25,634 nucleotides of DNA from a virus. The notes under the pieces were generated by a model. It saw only the letters and a program-made list of their open reading frames with translations, was not told where the DNA came from and did no database searches. Shown here one piece after another: positions 432 through 11,097 of this stretch (position 1 is the stretch's first letter; each line of letters begins with the position of its first letter). The stretch spans positions 1 to 25,634 of the IMG/VR virus record IMGVR_UViG_3300043446_003888. The stretch is one strand, 5' to 3'. Both the position numbers and the translations under genes were made by a program.

Positions 432-1649
432 ATGAGCACGACGCTTCCCCCTGCCCCTGCTGTTCTCCCTGCTGCCTCGACTGATAAGGCTGGCCGTAAG
501 ACGGTTTCTAAACGCATCGCTGGTGTGGCGGTGCGGTTTTACAAACGCACGGCGGCGGCTAGCTGGACGATGGATTTTATGGTGCCGGGCTCTTCCGAGC
601 GGGTGCAGGAATCGACGCGCTGGACGACTCTTGCGGAGGCGGAGCGGGTGGCGGCGGGGAGGATCGAGGAGGTGAAGCGGCTGATTCTCAACCTGGGCTC
701 TAAGGCGCTGGTGCGGGGGGCGTGGGCGACGGTGGGTGAGGTGCTGGCGGTGCTGGATCAGGGGGATAAGGTGGTAGATTCTGGCACGCTGCGGACCTAC
801 AAGAGCGCGCTGCTGAGGCTGGCGCGGACGGTGGATGAGGTGGCTCCTTTTGAGGTGGGGATGGATAAGGCTCTGGCAAGGGTGACGGTGGAGCGGTTGT
901 TTTCGCTGGGGCAGGGTCGCGAGGGTAGGGGCGTGAATTGGGTGGACCCGCTGCCGGTGAACTCGGGCCTGAATGGGACGGTGCGTAATGCGCTGGCGCT
1001 GATGTCTCATCGTGAGCGGCTGATGCCGGGCTTGAAGGTGCCGGATGTGGTGGATCTGCGGAAGCTGCCGAAGCTGCGGGAGGCGCGCCATGGTTTTGTG
1101 CCGTGGCCTGCTGGGGTGTTTGAGCGGATGAAGACGGAGGTGGAAGGGCTGCGGGAGTCGCAGCCGGAGCTGTGGCTGATTAACGTGTGCTTGCGTCGCC
1201 TTGGGCTGCGGGCGGAGGAGCTGCTGGCGGCTCGGCGCGAGTGGATCGAGCAGGATGCGCAGGGGCGCTGGTGCCTGGTGGTGAAGGATCGGGCGGATTG
1301 GCAGGTGCTGAAGCATGGGAAGCCGCGGCGGCTGCTGCTGGATGCGGAGCTGGCGGGGGTGCTGGCGGGCAAGGCGGGCTTTTTAATTGCGGATGGGCTG
1401 GGGGAGACGACGCGTTATGATCTGATTTACCGTCGCCATTCGGAGTTTTTGCGGCGCTTTATTCCTGACCGGACGAAATCCAATCATGAGCTGCGGATGC
1501 ATGCGGCCTCACAGGTGTATATGCAGCAGGGGCTGGGGGCGGCGGCGTATTTCCTGGGCGACTCGGCGAGCACGACGGAGCGGTTTTATGCGAGCTGGCT
1601 GGGCGGTGCGGTGGGCCTGGGTGAGGATGCGGTGGGGGCGATGGGCTGA
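432..1649 (+). CDS. int: tyrosine recombinase / phage integrase
   Basis: This 405-residue protein is a phage-type tyrosine recombinase that would join attP to the host tRNA-Leu gene. The C-terminal catalytic domain shows the first Arg in LGLRAEE (R260), a basic beta-hairpin with KHGKPRR (about 296-302), the HELR box (H352-R355) and the nucleophile in RFY (Y386). The second histidine box, normally LGH, reads LGDS, so Asp replaces His. This position varies in the family, and activity is still plausible. The N-terminal 60 residues resemble an arm-binding region and about 110-220 a SAM-like core-binding domain. Codons are very G-rich. The start at 432 is the only ATG near the frame's beginning, and the Shine-Dalgarno sequence is weak. 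The gene is transcribed away from the att core and converges on the leftward block. Confidence 0.93.
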   Translation: MSTTLPPAPAVLPAASTDKAGRKTVSKRIAGVAVRFYKRTAAASWTMDFMVPGSSERVQESTRWTTLAEAERVAAGRIEEVKRLILNLGSKALVRGAWATVGEVLAVLDQGDKVVDSGTLRTYKSALLRLARTVDEVAPFEVGMDKALARVTVERLFSLGQGREGRGVNWVDPLPVNSGLNGTVRNALALMSHRERLMPGLKVPDVVDLRKLPKLREARHGFVPWPAGVFERMKTEVEGLRESQPELWLINVCLRRLGLRAEELLAARREWIEQDAQGRWCLVVKDRADWQVLKHGKPRRLLLDAELAGVLAGKAGFLIADGLGETTRYDLIYRRHSEFLRRFIPDRTKSNHELRMHAASQVYMQQGLGAAAYFLGDSASTTERFYASWLGGAVGLGEDAVGAMG

Positions 1650-1673
1650 GGTTTGCTTGGTCCGTAAATTGTG

Positions 1674-1690
1674 ATGTCGATTTTCGACAT
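1674..1690. promoter_or_regulatory. 17-bp palindrome after int
   Basis: ATGTCGA-TTT-TCGACAT is a perfect 7-bp inverted repeat just downstream of the int stop. It has operator-like symmetry, but it lies between two convergent genes and no promoter is evident. It could equally be the upper part of a terminator region. Confidence 0.35.
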
Positions 1691-1710
1691 GGTGTTTTAC
1701 GGGCATGAAG

Positions 1711-1737
1711 AAGCCGCGCTGGTGTGGCGCGGCTTTT
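1711..1737. terminator. terminator-like hairpin between convergent genes
   Basis: AAGCCGCGC (1711-1719) pairs with GCGCGGCTT (1727-1735) around a 7-base loop, followed by TT. The hairpin lies after int (plus strand) and after the 57-residue minus-strand gene, so it could end transcription in both directions. The T-tract is short. Confidence 0.6.
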
Positions 1738-1782
1738 GGGGTGAGTGGGGTGCTGCTGGGCTGGGTTTTGGGGCGCGGGGTT

Positions 1783-1956
1783 TTACCGTAGCTTGGCAAT
1801 GGCGGCTTCGAGGGCCTCGGCGAGGCTGAGCTGGTGGCGCTGCTGGTAGGCGCGCAGTTTCAAATCGGATTGCGCGTTGATTCTGGCGTTGATGCGGGCG
1901 GGACGCTCGGCGCATGGGCGGCCGCGTGGGCGCTTGACGGAGGCTGGGGTTGGCAT
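1783..1956 (-). CDS. small AT-hook / ribbon-helix-helix-like DNA-binding protein
   Basis: This 57-residue protein has a basic N terminus with the AT-hook-like core RPRGRP (9-14), then an ARINARINA strand, and two helices (SDLKLRAYQQRH and SLAEALEAAIAKLR). A short strand plus two helices is the pattern of ribbon-helix-helix regulators, which bind DNA as dimers. I chose the ATG at 1956 because the conserved-looking part begins just after it. Upstream extension of the same frame gives low-complexity sequence. No Shine-Dalgarno sequence is visible. The gene is the last on the leftward strand and faces int. A role as an accessory regulator of the block is inferred only. Confidence 0.6.
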   Translation of the reverse strand: MPTPASVKRPRGRPCAERPARINARINAQSDLKLRAYQQRHQLSLAEALEAAIAKLR

Positions 1957-2000
1957 AAATTGCTTTTGATGCTGCGGCCGTGGTGGCTGCGGTGTTGTGG

Positions 2001-2035
2001 AGCCGGTGCGCCTTTGCGGGGTGCACCGGCTTTTT
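2001..2035 (+). terminator. rho-independent-type terminator
   Basis: AGCCGGTGC (2001-2009) pairs with GCACCGGCT (2023-2031), with a 13-base loop and then a T-run on the plus strand. It sits just beyond the stop of the minus-strand zinc-ribbon gene. The T-run suggests it stops rightward read-through, while the stem may also mark the 3' end of the leftward transcript. Confidence 0.6.
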
Positions 2036-2050
2036 GTTTGGGTGGAGGGT

Positions 2051-2425
2051 TTACAAATCCCAATGCAAACCGCGTTCGCCATAATACGAGCGGGAGGCGG
2101 TTTCTCCTTCTTTGGAAGCGGTAGCGTTGCCGCAATCGGTGCAAACGCCGTAACCTGTATCACGATTCCACCATTGGCGGCCTTTGGTAGGTTGCCCACA
2201 AGTGCAGCAGATCAGAGTGCGGGCTGGTTTAACGAAGCGTTGACGGAAAAGGGTGGCGAGATCCGGTAAAATGTAATCCCCGCTGGGCTGCCGTTGTGGG
2301 CGATGGGCAAGGCCGCGGCTGCGGGCCGCGCGTAGCAGATACGCAACGCGAGCGCGTGGCACATGATAAGATTTTTGTTCGGTGTGATAGATGAGAGTGA
2401 AGGCGGTTTTGGTGGTGGTGCTCAT
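2051..2425 (-). CDS. zinc-ribbon protein of unknown function
   Basis: The protein is 124 residues long. A zinc ribbon is visible as CCTC (C73/C74, C76) and CTDC (C95, C98), separated by GRQWWNRDTGYG. The N-terminal 65 residues contain several basic and hydrophobic stretches and could form a small DNA- or RNA-binding fold. Similar proteins with a Gly-Arg-Gln-Trp-Trp core occur, from memory, in verrucomicrobial mobile elements. No function is established. The start MSTTTK and the 75 bp before it are shared with the ArdC-like gene upstream in the same block, so its translation start is probably correct and its leader is a duplicate. It may be a moron-type accessory gene. Confidence 0.75.
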   Translation of the reverse strand: MSTTTKTAFTLIYHTEQKSYHVPRARVAYLLRAARSRGLAHRPQRQPSGDYILPDLATLFRQRFVKPARTLICCTCGQPTKGRQWWNRDTGYGVCTDCGNATASKEGETASRSYYGERGLHWDL

Positions 2426-2483
2426 GGCGTGGTGCTGTTTGGGTGTTATGGTTTGGTTTGCGGTGCCCGTTTGCGGCGGGCTG
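2407..2483 (-). repeat. duplicated gene leader, copy A
   Basis: The start codon region and upstream leader of the zinc-ribbon gene are closely similar to the leader of the ArdC-like gene (about 3920-3990). Both carry the plus-strand words GTGGTGCTCATGGCGTG, GGTTTGGTTTGCGG and TGCCCGTTTGCGGCGGGCTG. They differ by a few substitutions and a short indel. The leader probably contains the promoter or ribosome entry sequence for both genes. Confidence 0.75.
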
Positions 2484-2504
2484 GGGGCCGTGTGGCCCTC
2501 CCTG

Positions 2505-2530
2505 CTGCGCCCTGGCGGACCAGGGCGCAG
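2505..2530 (-). terminator. repeated 11-bp-stem hairpin, copy 1
   Basis: CTGCGCCCTGG (2505-2515), a four-base loop, and CCAGGGCGCAG (2520-2530) form a perfect 11-bp stem 20 bp after the ABA-sandwich gene stop. The same stem, with flanking GGGGGCCGTGTGGCC, follows the ArdC-like gene at 2977-3002. It acts either as an mRNA 3'-end stabiliser or as a terminator. There is no T-tract, so a classical intrinsic terminator is not assured. Confidence 0.65.
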
Positions 2531-2550
2531 GGTGATTGGTCGTCGTCATA

Positions 2551-2910
2551 TCAGATTTGATGTCCAAGGGTTAGCAGCAAAGCATCAGCCATTTGAGCGG
2601 GTGTTGCCAAGGCAATCTTTATGGCTTCGGCTGCCGTCCATTCTTCGCAACAAAGCGGCTCTCCTTCGCGGAACGAGGGTTTTTCAGGCCAGCTCTCGAG
2701 CTTGGAAAGCAGGGTGTAAGCAAACACTTTTTTGTGCCAATCATCCAGCTTTCCCACCACTTCACAAATGGCGTCACGGGAGGTAAGGTAGGGTGGGGGA
2801 AATCTTTTTACGATGCCTGTTTCGGCAATCTTCCATCTACCATCTCGCAGTTCTCTCCACCCCTCAAACTCAGCGATAGCAATTTGTTTTTGTTCAGGTG
2901 TCATGTTCAT
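2551..2910 (-). CDS. phage ABA-sandwich-type small protein
   Basis: This 119-residue protein starts MNMTPEQKQIAIAEFEGWRE and ends in ATPAQMADALLLTLGH. The opening helix (IAIAE..GW) and closing helix (AT..Q..AL..TLG) match what I know of the Pfam 'phage ABA sandwich' family, whose function is unknown. A middle segment, YLTSRDAICEVVGKLDD, corresponds to the family's 'YL.sldAmhe.e' region. The start at 2910 or the second Met at 2904 are both possible, and no Shine-Dalgarno sequence is visible. The gene lies between the ArdC-like and zinc-ribbon genes with hairpins before and after it, consistent with an independent cassette. Confidence 0.8.
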   Translation of the reverse strand: MNMTPEQKQIAIAEFEGWRELRDGRWKIAETGIVKRFPPPYLTSRDAICEVVGKLDDWHKKVFAYTLLSKLESWPEKPSFREGEPLCCEEWTAAEAIKIALATPAQMADALLLTLGHQI

Positions 2911-2976
2911 AATAAAATAGGAGAAACATTTTCAATTTTTTGTTGTGGTTTGCTGGGGGCCGTGTGGCCTTCCCTG

Positions 2977-3002
2977 CTGCGCCCTGGGGGACCAGGGCGC
3001 AG
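2977..3002 (-). terminator. repeated 11-bp-stem hairpin, copy 2
   Basis: CTGCGCCCTGG (2977-2987), loop GGGA, and CCAGGGCGCAG (2992-3002) lie just past the ArdC-like stop at 3013. The stem and about 20 bp on its left are almost identical to the hairpin at 2505-2530. The shared placement behind two unrelated genes suggests a 3'-end element that travels with the cassettes. Confidence 0.65.
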
Positions 3003-3012
3003 GGTGGGAGGG

Positions 3013-3930
3013 TCAGGCGGCGGCGGCTTCTTCGGTGGTGGCGTCGTCGTCGTGGGTGATGCCGAGGATGTAATCTGCGGCGCGGGCGGCTTTGCCTGCG
3101 GCCCACACAAGGGCCTTGGCGTCTTCCTGGAGGGCGGAGAGCCAGCCTTGAATGTATGAGGCCTGATTCTCAATGACTGGGGCGCTGATGCCGGTGTGGG
3201 CGCAAAGGTTGGCGGCGGTGAGCTCGGCCACGAGTTCCTCGCGGCTGTAGGTCTCGCTGCCAAAATTGGCGCATTGGGTGAGGGTGGCGCGATCCAGGCG
3301 GGAGGCGTGGCCGGTGGCGTGGGCGAGCTCGTGGAAAAGGGTGGAATAGAAACCCTCGGTGCTTTTGAAGGCGGTGCGCTCGGTCATGTGAACGCTGTCG
3401 GTGCTGGGGCGGTAGAAGCAGCGGCCGCGGCCGTCTTCGCGGATGGTGGGTGCGTTTGGCATGCTGGCCACGATGCGCTCGCACTCCTCGACGGGCTGGA
3501 AGGGGCGTGCGGCTGGGGCGGGGAGCTCGGGCAGGCCTTCGCACTGGGCAATGTTGAACACGTAGTAATGACGCAGCATGGGAACGACTTTGTGCTTGCC
3601 GGTGGTGGGGTCAATGTCTTTGCCTTTGAAGAACTTCCAGAACGTGACGAGGTGACCTTTTTCACCTTTGCGGACCTGGCCGCCGAGCTCGCGAGCTTTG
3701 TTGAAGGTGACGAAGACGGGGCGCTGGTAGGCGAGGGAGCCAAGAAGGAGCCAGTTGAGGCCGCGATAGGGGCGGCCGTCCCAGTTGCGCGGGGTGTCGT
3801 TGGTGGCGGTCCAGTCTTTCTTCCAAGGGCAGACGCCTGCGCGGAGGCTGGCAACGATGCGCTGAGTGACTTCTTCGTAAATGTCACGTTTGGCGGCGGT
3901 GGTGATGGCGGGCTTTGTGGTGGTGCTCAT
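3013..3930 (-). CDS. ardC: ArdC-like antirestriction protein with zincin metallopeptidase domain
   Basis: This 305-residue protein has the two domains of the ArdC family. The N-terminal ssDNA-binding domain is at about 14-130 (IYEEVTQRIVASLRAG.CPWKKDW, then YRGLNWLLL). A C-terminal zincin-like protease domain at about 145-290 carries HELAHATGH (H200, E201, H204), with a downstream SREELVAELTAA helix that can supply the third zinc ligand. Members protect incoming plasmid or phage DNA from host restriction, and the archetype ArdC of plasmid pSA binds ssDNA. Length and order are normal for the family. The acidic-alanine C-terminal tail (DDDATTEEAAAA) is a likely disordered end. It is the largest gene of the leftward block, next to the repressor, so it may be expressed from the prophage. 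Confidence 0.9.
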   Translation of the reverse strand: MSTTTKPAITTAAKRDIYEEVTQRIVASLRAGVCPWKKDWTATNDTPRNWDGRPYRGLNWLLLGSLAYQRPVFVTFNKARELGGQVRKGEKGHLVTFWKFFKGKDIDPTTGKHKVVPMLRHYYVFNIAQCEGLPELPAPAARPFQPVEECERIVASMPNAPTIREDGRGRCFYRPSTDSVHMTERTAFKSTEGFYSTLFHELAHATGHASRLDRATLTQCANFGSETYSREELVAELTAANLCAHTGISAPVIENQASYIQGWLSALQEDAKALVWAAGKAARAADYILGITHDDDATTEEAAAA

Positions 3931-3990
3931 GGCGTGTGGTGGTGTGTGGGTGTTGTGGTTTGGTTTGCGGTGCCCGTTTGCGGCGGGCTG
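3920..3990 (-). repeat. duplicated gene leader, copy C
   Basis: The leader of the ArdC-like gene shares its start codon context and upstream words (GGTTTGGTTTGCGG and TGCCCGTTTGCGGCGGGCTG on the plus strand) with the zinc-ribbon gene leader at 2407-2483. A remnant, TGTTGTGGTTTGCTGGGGG, survives at 2940-2958 between the ArdC-like and ABA-sandwich genes. Confidence 0.75.
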
Positions 3991-4012
3991 TCGTTTGCGG
4001 CGACGTTTGACC

Positions 4013-4045
4013 TTTAAATGCTGTATTTGTTGGCGTCAACAAATA
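4013..4045 (-). promoter_or_regulatory. candidate leftward promoter overlapping a 22-bp palindromic operator
   Basis: TATTTGTTG (4024-4032), GCGT, and CAACAAATA (4037-4045) form a perfect 9-bp inverted repeat. On the minus strand its centre reads TTGACG, a good -35 box, and TTTAAA (4013-4018) lies 15 bp further on as a possible -10 box. The site is about 85 bp before the ArdC-like start and just past the repressor stop. It could let a repressor dimer control the ArdC block. The spacer is shorter than the ideal 17 bp. Confidence 0.5.
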
Positions 4046-4083
4046 ATTTTCACAAGGGTGTTTTTTGTGTGTTTTGCCTGGTG

Positions 4084-4509
4084 TTAGGCTGGACCCAGGA
4101 TGAGTGTAACCGTTTTGACAAACCAGCGCGCTAGGCTGGTGTCGGACTGTATGGCGGTTTGTAGGCGTTGCCAGGCAGCTAAGACAGCCGTTGGGCCGTG
4201 ATCCGTGCATTGTGGAGCTGTGGCGGTTGTTTCATTGAGCGTGCTACCGTCAAGATCGCGCACTATAATTTCCAGCCGTGACAAATATTCGGCTGGGCAG
4301 TCGTCGCGCAAATACGCTGTGAGCCAGCGTCGTGCAGTGTTGTCATCGACCGCGCGCAGCAGCTGACCGAAGCGTTCGGGGCGTGGGTGTGTCTCGTTGA
4401 GTATGTTTCCGATAGTCATTCGCGGCAAACAGGCCAGCTCTTCAAGCTGACGCGCGCTGACGTCTGAGGTTTCGAGATACTCGGCAAGCTGTACTGCTAG
4501 ATGGCTCAT
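4084..4509 (-). CDS. HTH repressor-like regulator
   Basis: This 141-residue protein has a helix-turn-helix in its first 55 residues: VQLAEYLETSDVSARQLEELACLPRMTIGNILN, then a helix PERFGQLLRAV. The Ser-Ala-Arg-Gln-Leu-Glu ... Thr-Ile-Gly-Asn-Ile-Leu spacing fits the XRE/Cro-CI type. The remainder includes a second helical segment (ARRWLTAYLRDDCPAEY) and a C-terminal helix that may dimerise. It is transcribed opposite to the early rightward operon, the position of a lysogeny repressor. Its start codon lies within a few bases of the first possible start of the rightward gene, so both promoters must overlap coding sequence. Repressor function is inferred from the HTH and from position. Confidence 0.75.
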   Translation of the reverse strand: MSHLAVQLAEYLETSDVSARQLEELACLPRMTIGNILNETHPRPERFGQLLRAVDDNTARRWLTAYLRDDCPAEYLSRLEIIVRDLDGSTLNETTATAPQCTDHGPTAVLAAWQRLQTAIQSDTSLARWFVKTVTLILGPA

Positions 4510-4527
4510 GCGGCTTCATTGCATAAA

Positions 4528-4542
4528 TTGCATGATTTCACA
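4528..4542 (+). promoter_or_regulatory. possible operator-like repeats at the divergent start region
   Basis: Around 4523-4536 the word TTGCAT occurs twice, separated by AAA, and overlaps the proposed start at 4532. The region is between the divergent repressor and early gene, where control sites are expected. This evidence is weak and rests on a short repeat. Confidence 0.25.
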
Positions 4543-4789
4543 AGATTTATTTGACGCTATTGCTGATTTGATGCATATCCTCTGTGATTTCATGCTGAAT
4601 ATGCCACAAGAAGCCACACCACCTGAGCTCATGGTGCTCGATGCACTGAAGGAAACCTGCGAACTAGTGCGCAAGAACAACCGTTGCCCGGAGATTGCTA
4701 AAGCGGCTCTCGATTGGGAAACTCGTTTTGTTTCACGCATGGCCAAAATCCAACCGGAGGCGCAGGCGGACGCTGCGGAAGCGGCTTAA
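4532..4789 (+). CDS. small early protein of unknown function
   Basis: Read from the ATG at 4532, this is 85 residues beginning MISQDLFDAIADLMH. A longer form from 4508 is possible, but it would overlap the divergent repressor start. The protein is mostly helical, with an amphipathic N-terminal half and an Ala/Glu-rich end (QPEAQADAAEAA). I recognise no family. Its stop codon overlaps the start of the next gene (TAATG at 4787-4791), so the two are translationally coupled. It is the first gene of the rightward operon, where lambda-like phages place cro or kil-type genes, but no HTH is evident. Confidence 0.6.
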   Translation: MISQDLFDAIADLMHILCDFMLNMPQEATPPELMVLDALKETCELVRKNNRCPEIAKAALDWETRFVSRMAKIQPEAQADAAEAA

Positions 4790-10695: not shown

Positions 10696-11097
10696 ATGCC
10701 CAATAAACTGAATGCCTACATTGACCCCGCGAAGCTCCAAGGAGCGTTTCGCATGAAGCTGAAATCCAAGACCGGCGAGGCGGAGGACTGCCTCGTGATT
10801 GTGTTGTCTAAGTCGCGCATCCGCGTCAATGAGCGGAACCCGGAGCGGCTGGGGCTGGCGCTGGACTTTGTGCCGAACAAGGACGGCAAGGACGAGTATG
10901 GCAACACGCACTGGTGCAAGGAGAGCGTGAGCAAGGCCGAGCGGGAAGGGCCGAATCCGCCGCAGATGCCGTTCCTCGGCAATGCGCGCGAGTATGAGCC
11001 CGGCGGCCAGCGCAGCGCCCGGCCAGCTAGCGCCGAGAGCCGTGAATCCGCCCAGGTGATGACCGAGGGCTTCGAGGACGATGACATCCCGTTTTGA
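10696..11097 (+). CDS. small protein with SSB-type acidic C-terminal tip
   Basis: This 133-residue protein has a globular N-terminal part (about 1-85: LQGAFRMKLKSKTGEAEDCL, IRVNERNPERLG), a Pro/Ser-rich linker, and the C-terminus MTEGFEDDDIPF. An acidic tail ending Asp-Asp-Asp-Ile-Pro-Phe is the hallmark of bacterial SSB proteins, where it recruits replication and repair partners. The N-terminal part does not show an obvious OB-fold motif, so it may be a divergent phage ssDNA-binding protein or another protein that borrows the SSB tail. Its place right after helicase and ParB-like genes supports a replication role. Confidence 0.6.
   Translation: MPNKLNAYIDPAKLQGAFRMKLKSKTGEAEDCLVIVLSKSRIRVNERNPERLGLALDFVPNKDGKDEYGNTHWCKESVSKAEREGPNPPQMPFLGNAREYEPGGQRSARPASAESRESAQVMTEGFEDDDIPF

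Follow-up and report, generated by a model that had tools for sequence, protein, structure and literature searches.

Do the small genes beside the integrase of this phage stand between common borders at which one gene can be exchanged for another? The question is raised by the window, which is the whole stretch of 25 634 nucleotides of an IMG/VR virus record that was analysed here. A leftward operon adjoins the tyrosine recombinase gene (432-1649; PHROG integrase match, E = 0.0017), and a first-pass annotation had claimed that genes of unrelated families in this operon share flanks, as in modular accessory regions, and had suggested a search for the same flanks around different genes elsewhere. 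The features concerned are given here from right to left.

4026-4043, minus strand: inverted repeat TTTGTTG-ACGC-CAACAAA, judged from the sequence to be a probable operator over a weak promoter (TTGACG)
3990-4004, minus strand: leader hairpin GTCG-CCGCAAA-CGAC, from sequence and folding
3972-3988, minus strand: hairpin GCCCG-CCGCAAA-CGGGC of leader L1, followed by an A/C-rich stretch
3936-3990, minus strand: leader L1 before the ArdC-like gene, 95% identical to L2 and homologous to the leaders of contigs L066, L070 and L073
3013-3930, minus strand: ArdC-like anti-restriction gene, 305 amino acids (PF08401, E = 2.7e-29; PF18818, E = 8e-35; PHROG 7245, E = 2e-76)
2943-3006, minus strand: hairpin unit H1 behind the ArdC-like gene, a 91% copy of H2, with a stem at 2977-3002 and a second hairpin at 2958-2969
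2941-2951, minus strand: putative leader stub AAACCACAACA behind H1, from sequence
2551-2910, minus strand: small A+T-richer gene, 119 amino acids, no family assigned, between the direct repeats H1 and H2
2471-2534, minus strand: hairpin unit H2, with a stem at 2505-2530, running into leader L2
2429-2483, minus strand: leader L2 before the zinc-ribbon-like gene, a 95% copy of L1
2051-2425, minus strand: zinc-ribbon-like gene, 124 amino acids, with 75% identical homologues in L066, L070, L073 and L075-L077
2002-2030, minus strand: leader hairpin before the ribbon-helix-helix (RHH)-like gene, with loop CCGCAAA and a different stem, from sequence
1783-1956, minus strand: RHH-like small gene, the last before the integrase, with homologues in L066, L070, L073 and L075-L077

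Both domains of the ArdC-like protein score above the curated cut-offs (102 bits for PF08401 and 120 bits for PF18818), and together with the PHROG match they bear out its initial label; the gene is an ordinary member of the ArdC anti-restriction proteins and only its setting is noteworthy. The product of the 119-residue gene gave no match in Pfam, PHROGs or NCBIfam, and the name 'ABA-sandwich' under which it had been introduced was rejected, as the HMM of the phage ABA sandwich family (PF18066) gave no match even at E = 10. The structure model of this protein is poor (pLDDT 59) and does not allow its fold to be judged. The G+C fraction of the gene is about 0.39-0.57, compared with 0.6-0.7 in its surroundings. 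The zinc-ribbon-like gene is a constant member of the operon across the relatives described below. The same regulator-like gene is found at 4084-4509 of the window, before the ArdC leader, and downstream of the RHH-like gene in the relatives (L066:3177-3608), and the order of the operon is thus permuted between them. Elsewhere in the window, a 72-bp unit repeated twice with 100% identity occupies 1-144, at the contig end, where it could be an assembly artefact; next to it, at about 245-278, a stretch resembling the 3' end of a tRNA has the look of the attachment site, and an SSB-like protein with an acidic ...DDDIPF tail is encoded at 10696-11097, directly before the terminase region. Queries with the ArdC and capsid proteins against bacterial genomes found no relative.

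The leaders before the ArdC-like and zinc-ribbon-like genes had been described as near copies down to their first codons, and they prove to be so: the identity extends over 55 nt (blastn E = 2e-20) and the match continues through the start codon (ATGAGCACCACCACCAAA versus ATGAGCACCACCACAAAG, both encoding MSTTTK). Of a partial leader thought to survive at 2940-2958, just 11 nt are real; they lie in the expected place behind H1, and as a probable leader remnant they are convincing by position but not by length. The leaders of the window and its relatives align over their promoter-side and leader parts, comprising the inverted repeat, the CCGCAAA-loop hairpin, an A/C-rich run and the ATG. The inverted repeat (TTGTTG-N4-CAACAA) is complete in the window and in the second leader of the relatives and partial in their first. 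A consensus scan returned no promoter match at 4026-4043, so the leader promoter is a predicted one, and L2 of the window lacks it. The loop CCGCAAA occurs on four closing stems (GTCG, CCCG, CGCG and GCGA) and ranks first among about 850 different 7-nt loops of these genomes when ordered by number of distinct stems, a ranking that rests on genomes other than L066; it is also kept, on another stem, in the RHH leader hairpins of L066, L070 and L073. A constant loop on changing stems points to a folded strand, most simply RNA.

The hairpins behind the ArdC-like gene and gene 2551-2910, likewise noted at first pass as near copies, agree over 64 nt (blastn E = 9e-22), and the 119-residue gene is accordingly flanked by two 64-bp direct repeats. 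Each unit folds as two successive hairpins, with z-scores of -4.7 (H1) and -4.0 (H2) relative to shuffled sequences, the folded stretches having taken in some leader sequence. Neither H1 nor H2 has a T-tail on the transcribed strand, and blastn found no further copy of the repeat unit in the window. Exact patterns of the hairpin, of the hairpin-leader joint and of the leader had no match in IMG/VR, and BLAST searches with the unit gave nothing credible in phages (50 697 phage records) or plasmids; the exact unit of the window is private within the collections searched.

About 50 related contigs were gathered with capsid and helicase queries, and their operons were compared by protein mapping and at the DNA level. 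L066 and L073 carry ArdC (83% identical) and the zinc-ribbon gene; in L070, L075, L076 and L077 protein mapping places the zinc-ribbon gene but no ArdC. A homologous leader (outline ...CCGCGCCGCAAACGCGAACCTCAAACCACATCACAAACAGC-ATG) precedes ArdC in L066 and L073 and a DUF932 gene in L070 and L075-L077 (PF06067, E = 1.5e-44 in L070), and two copies of the leader stand before different genes in these relatives. Behind each gene lies a hairpin, CACGGGGGCCGCGCATCCTTCACGCGGGCAA or a close form of it, which in L066 occupies the junctions of ArdC with a gene X and of X with the zinc-ribbon gene, in L073 the corresponding junctions of a gene Y, and in L070 the junction between the DUF932 and zinc-ribbon genes.

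Alignment of these contigs locates the exchanges. L066 and L070 are 91% identical down to L066:6271, 7 nt before the ArdC start, and their alignment resumes at 98% from L066:4947, 7 nt before the stop of gene X, the block of ArdC, hairpin and X being replaced by DUF932. L066 and L073 align through ArdC and the first hairpin to 5311, beyond which X is exchanged for Y; they are aligned again from 4860, inside the N-terminus of the zinc-ribbon gene, to 4333, in the second leader, and once more from 4040, in the RHH leader hairpin, with an 84-residue versus a 68-residue gene between the last two points. There are thus three slots and three gene swaps, at which flanks of 91-98% identity stop at a leader or a hairpin, with the exception of the one right-hand L066/L073 break inside the zinc-ribbon N-terminus. 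By blastp, the proteins that replace one another are unrelated. The border units are repeated and constant in placement, and different genes stand between the same borders in the relatives; the suggested search is positive in related phages, where ArdC and DUF932 follow one leader, and the three swaps support the earlier view that unrelated genes share flanks as in modular accessory regions. Since the genes found between the same stretches vary from phage to phage, the borders appear to be interchangeable plug-in sites. The hairpin of the window differs in sequence from that of the relatives, and the borders therefore correspond in type and placement but not in exact sequence.

In a sister phage, G011, whose integrase is about 96% identical in its main pieces and whose capsid is 88% identical, the body of the ArdC gene is gone. 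What is left (L032:13160-13250) is a leader with 13 codons of ArdC and then a stop codon (MSSTTTKPAITTA and stop), directly linked to the sequence that lies behind the zinc-ribbon gene, and ArdC has no match in the G011 record. Frame breaks are scattered through this record, so the stop codon is less certain than the loss of ArdC. For the G011 integrase (L032:10001-11199) and several other genes, the match is broken into segments that lie in different frames, which points to indel errors in the record.

The hairpin of the relatives has the form GGGGG-(5-bp stem)-CATCC-N-A-(stem), which is that of a widespread phage intergenic element. A pattern scan of IMG/VR found at least 120 stretches, and 82 copies were examined among the matches listed; the pattern required the exact core, so that the invariance of the core among these copies is by construction, and the evidence comes from position, flanks and independently found variants. 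All but two of the 82 copies are preceded, at no more than 40 nt, by a stop codon on the same strand (median distance 10 nt, mostly 6-17), whereas 40% of random places on the same strands have such a stop within 120 nt. A same-strand start lies downstream of 78 copies (median about 20 nt), which is not telling by itself because such a start also follows 85% of random places. Clustering of the flanking proteins gave 61 groups upstream and 57 downstream; one of the upstream families ends in ...DEIPF, the tail of single-strand binding proteins, and has four unrelated families behind it, and the element also stands behind the capsid gene in L010-L012. Compensatory stems that lay outside the pattern selection were found as CTGCG/CGCAG (L112, L122 and phage Silvanus), GCGCG/CGCGC (L094) and GTGCG/CGCAC (L146), all of which keep GGGGG and CATCC. 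Scrambled loop words gave 0-1 matches each.

Among cultured phages, Methanosarcina virus MetMV, Rhodococcus phage Shagrat and Stenotrophomonas phage Silvanus carry it, always between genes, and most records hold one to three strict copies. Neither plasmids nor E. coli genomes yielded any at the sensitivity of the scan, and the window has no copy, its H units occupying the same places. Rfam searches at an E-value threshold gave best matches far below the gathering cut-off for window positions 1600-4700, nothing in L066, L070, L073 and L011, and nothing above the cut-off in L096; a literature text search found no description of the element sequence. Element loci include L088-L167, L066, L073 and L208-L210. 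On the minus strand of L096, four copies or near copies follow in a row within 3.7 kb. Between at least three of them and the small gene that comes next lie a second hairpin (GGCGCGAGAGCGCC) and a Shine-Dalgarno site, so that the array closely resembles the H plus L units of the window. We tentatively suggest that GGGGG-(5-bp stem)-CAUCC-N-A-(stem), usually 6-17 nt past a stop codon, may be an undescribed RNA element of gene junctions in unrelated tailed bacteriophages and at least one archaeal virus, which might have its effect in mRNA processing, ribosome release or re-initiation, with a secondary role as a common border for gene exchange.

Taken together, the locus is likely to be the leftward early accessory operon of a temperate phage, assembled from exchangeable cassettes whose leaders and stop-associated hairpins would serve in addition as homology borders. 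One kind of border would be a 5' leader (operator/promoter, CCGCAAA-loop hairpin, A/C-rich unstructured stretch and ATG) and the other a hairpin a few nucleotides behind the stop codon. Such units would serve the expression of whichever gene precedes or follows, with the leader controlling and starting expression and the stop-associated RNA hairpin presumably acting on the mRNA where two genes meet. Present as near-identical copies from junction to junction, the units would also supply homology by which genes could be gained, lost or replaced with their reading frames intact, and homologous recombination is the route of exchange that we infer. The 119-residue gene, with its foreign composition, lies between the 64-bp repeats as would be expected if a junction unit had been duplicated and had either come in with the gene or come to bound it.

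The main rival, which we hold to be rather unlikely, is that the repeats are expression signals only, with genes joined at random and non-homologously and with selection keeping those gene-edge joints that have working leaders and hairpins. Random joining followed by selection fits the general view of phage mosaicism, and since it too predicts breaks at gene edges, such breaks weigh against exchange by cassettes. The leader hairpins, with their fixed loop and changing stems, look functional in any case, and the widespread element is anchored to stop codons whatever the gene. What this account leaves aside is that the junctions of one genome have sequence in common (91-95% identity) and not function alone, which offers ready homology, and that break points fall at the repeats in several slots. 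The absence of the window's exact units from all collections searched would suit a local tandem duplication in one lineage, the H and L units being copied when the 119-residue gene arrived and no wider cassettes existing; this is improbable, and is weakened by the homologous leaders and equivalent hairpins that bound different genes in the relatives.

Other readings concern the hairpins themselves. Their stable G+C-rich stems could be those of intrinsic terminators or attenuators between genes, yet no T-run follows the stem of H1 or H2, terminator-like sites are as frequent as in shuffled sequences and a T-run is likewise missing after most copies of the relatives' element; the intrinsic terminator reading of the window hairpins was rejected for want of the G+C stem followed by a T-run, and we regard this alternative as very unlikely. 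A compact hairpin some 10 nt downstream of the stop codon, in which GGG may pair with UCC as a pseudoknot, might stimulate readthrough or frameshifting, but the start codon that follows keeps no fixed frame with respect to the stop (35/22/17) and each of the three stop codons is used, on which grounds this extremely unlikely reading was rejected. The least probable is a set of integron-type cassettes with a site-specific recombinase acting at the hairpins. The gene-hairpin-gene-hairpin order in one direction, with a hairpin-forming repeat behind each gene as in attC cassettes, and the nearby tyrosine recombinase gene speak for it; however, the H and L units contain, as judged by eye, neither GTTRRRY nor a fitting RYYYAAC, there is no sign of IntI action, and G011 keeps its integrase with no H repeat seen. 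It was rejected because the attC core sites are absent from the units.

For the exchangeable cassettes that we favour, the nearest model appears to be the PeSL (promoter early stem-loop) cassette of T-even phages, which Arbiol et al. (2010, Genome Biol Evol 2:140; cited in PMC4177764) are said to have described. These cassettes are reportedly repeated intergenic units of a promoter and a stem-loop between small early accessory genes, and related phages are said to carry different genes between the units, a likeness to the three swaps among L066, L070 and L073. A stem-loop leader is repeated here as well (L1 and L2 in the window and two copies in the relatives), with a promoter that is only predicted and that L2 does not have. 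Unlike the T-even case, there are two kinds of border, a leader and a stop-associated hairpin, and recombination at the units is here a deduction. The units seem to work like PeSL without being one, since the phage bears an integrase and is not T4-type and the unit sequences are unrelated, with no match in the 50 697 phage records.

Among repeated elements, the nearest precedent seems to be the SAS/ESAS of cluster K mycobacteriophages, short repeated intergenic sequences in one orientation near genes of many families, which lie in the non-structural half of the genome and have no assigned function, although one in translation is suspected (PMC3203893). SAS is a 13-bp sequence, GGGATAGGAGCCC, located 3-7 nt before the start codon with a Shine-Dalgarno core inside it, and RNA hairpins find no support in the ESAS repeats (PMC3203893). 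The present units share the repetition near genes of many families, but no 13-bp GGGATAGGAGCCC occurs in them within 3-7 nt of a start codon, and they are not members; the hairpin of the relatives differs further in being tied to the stop codon, in its compensatory stem changes and in its spread across unrelated phages.

The borders, and the genes that swap between them, an anti-restriction gene included, would show in concrete sequence terms how uncultivated temperate phages exchange genes as modules, together with the testable prediction that the repeats set the break points. The conserved junction hairpin occurs in very different phages, cultured ones among them, in which its role is directly testable.
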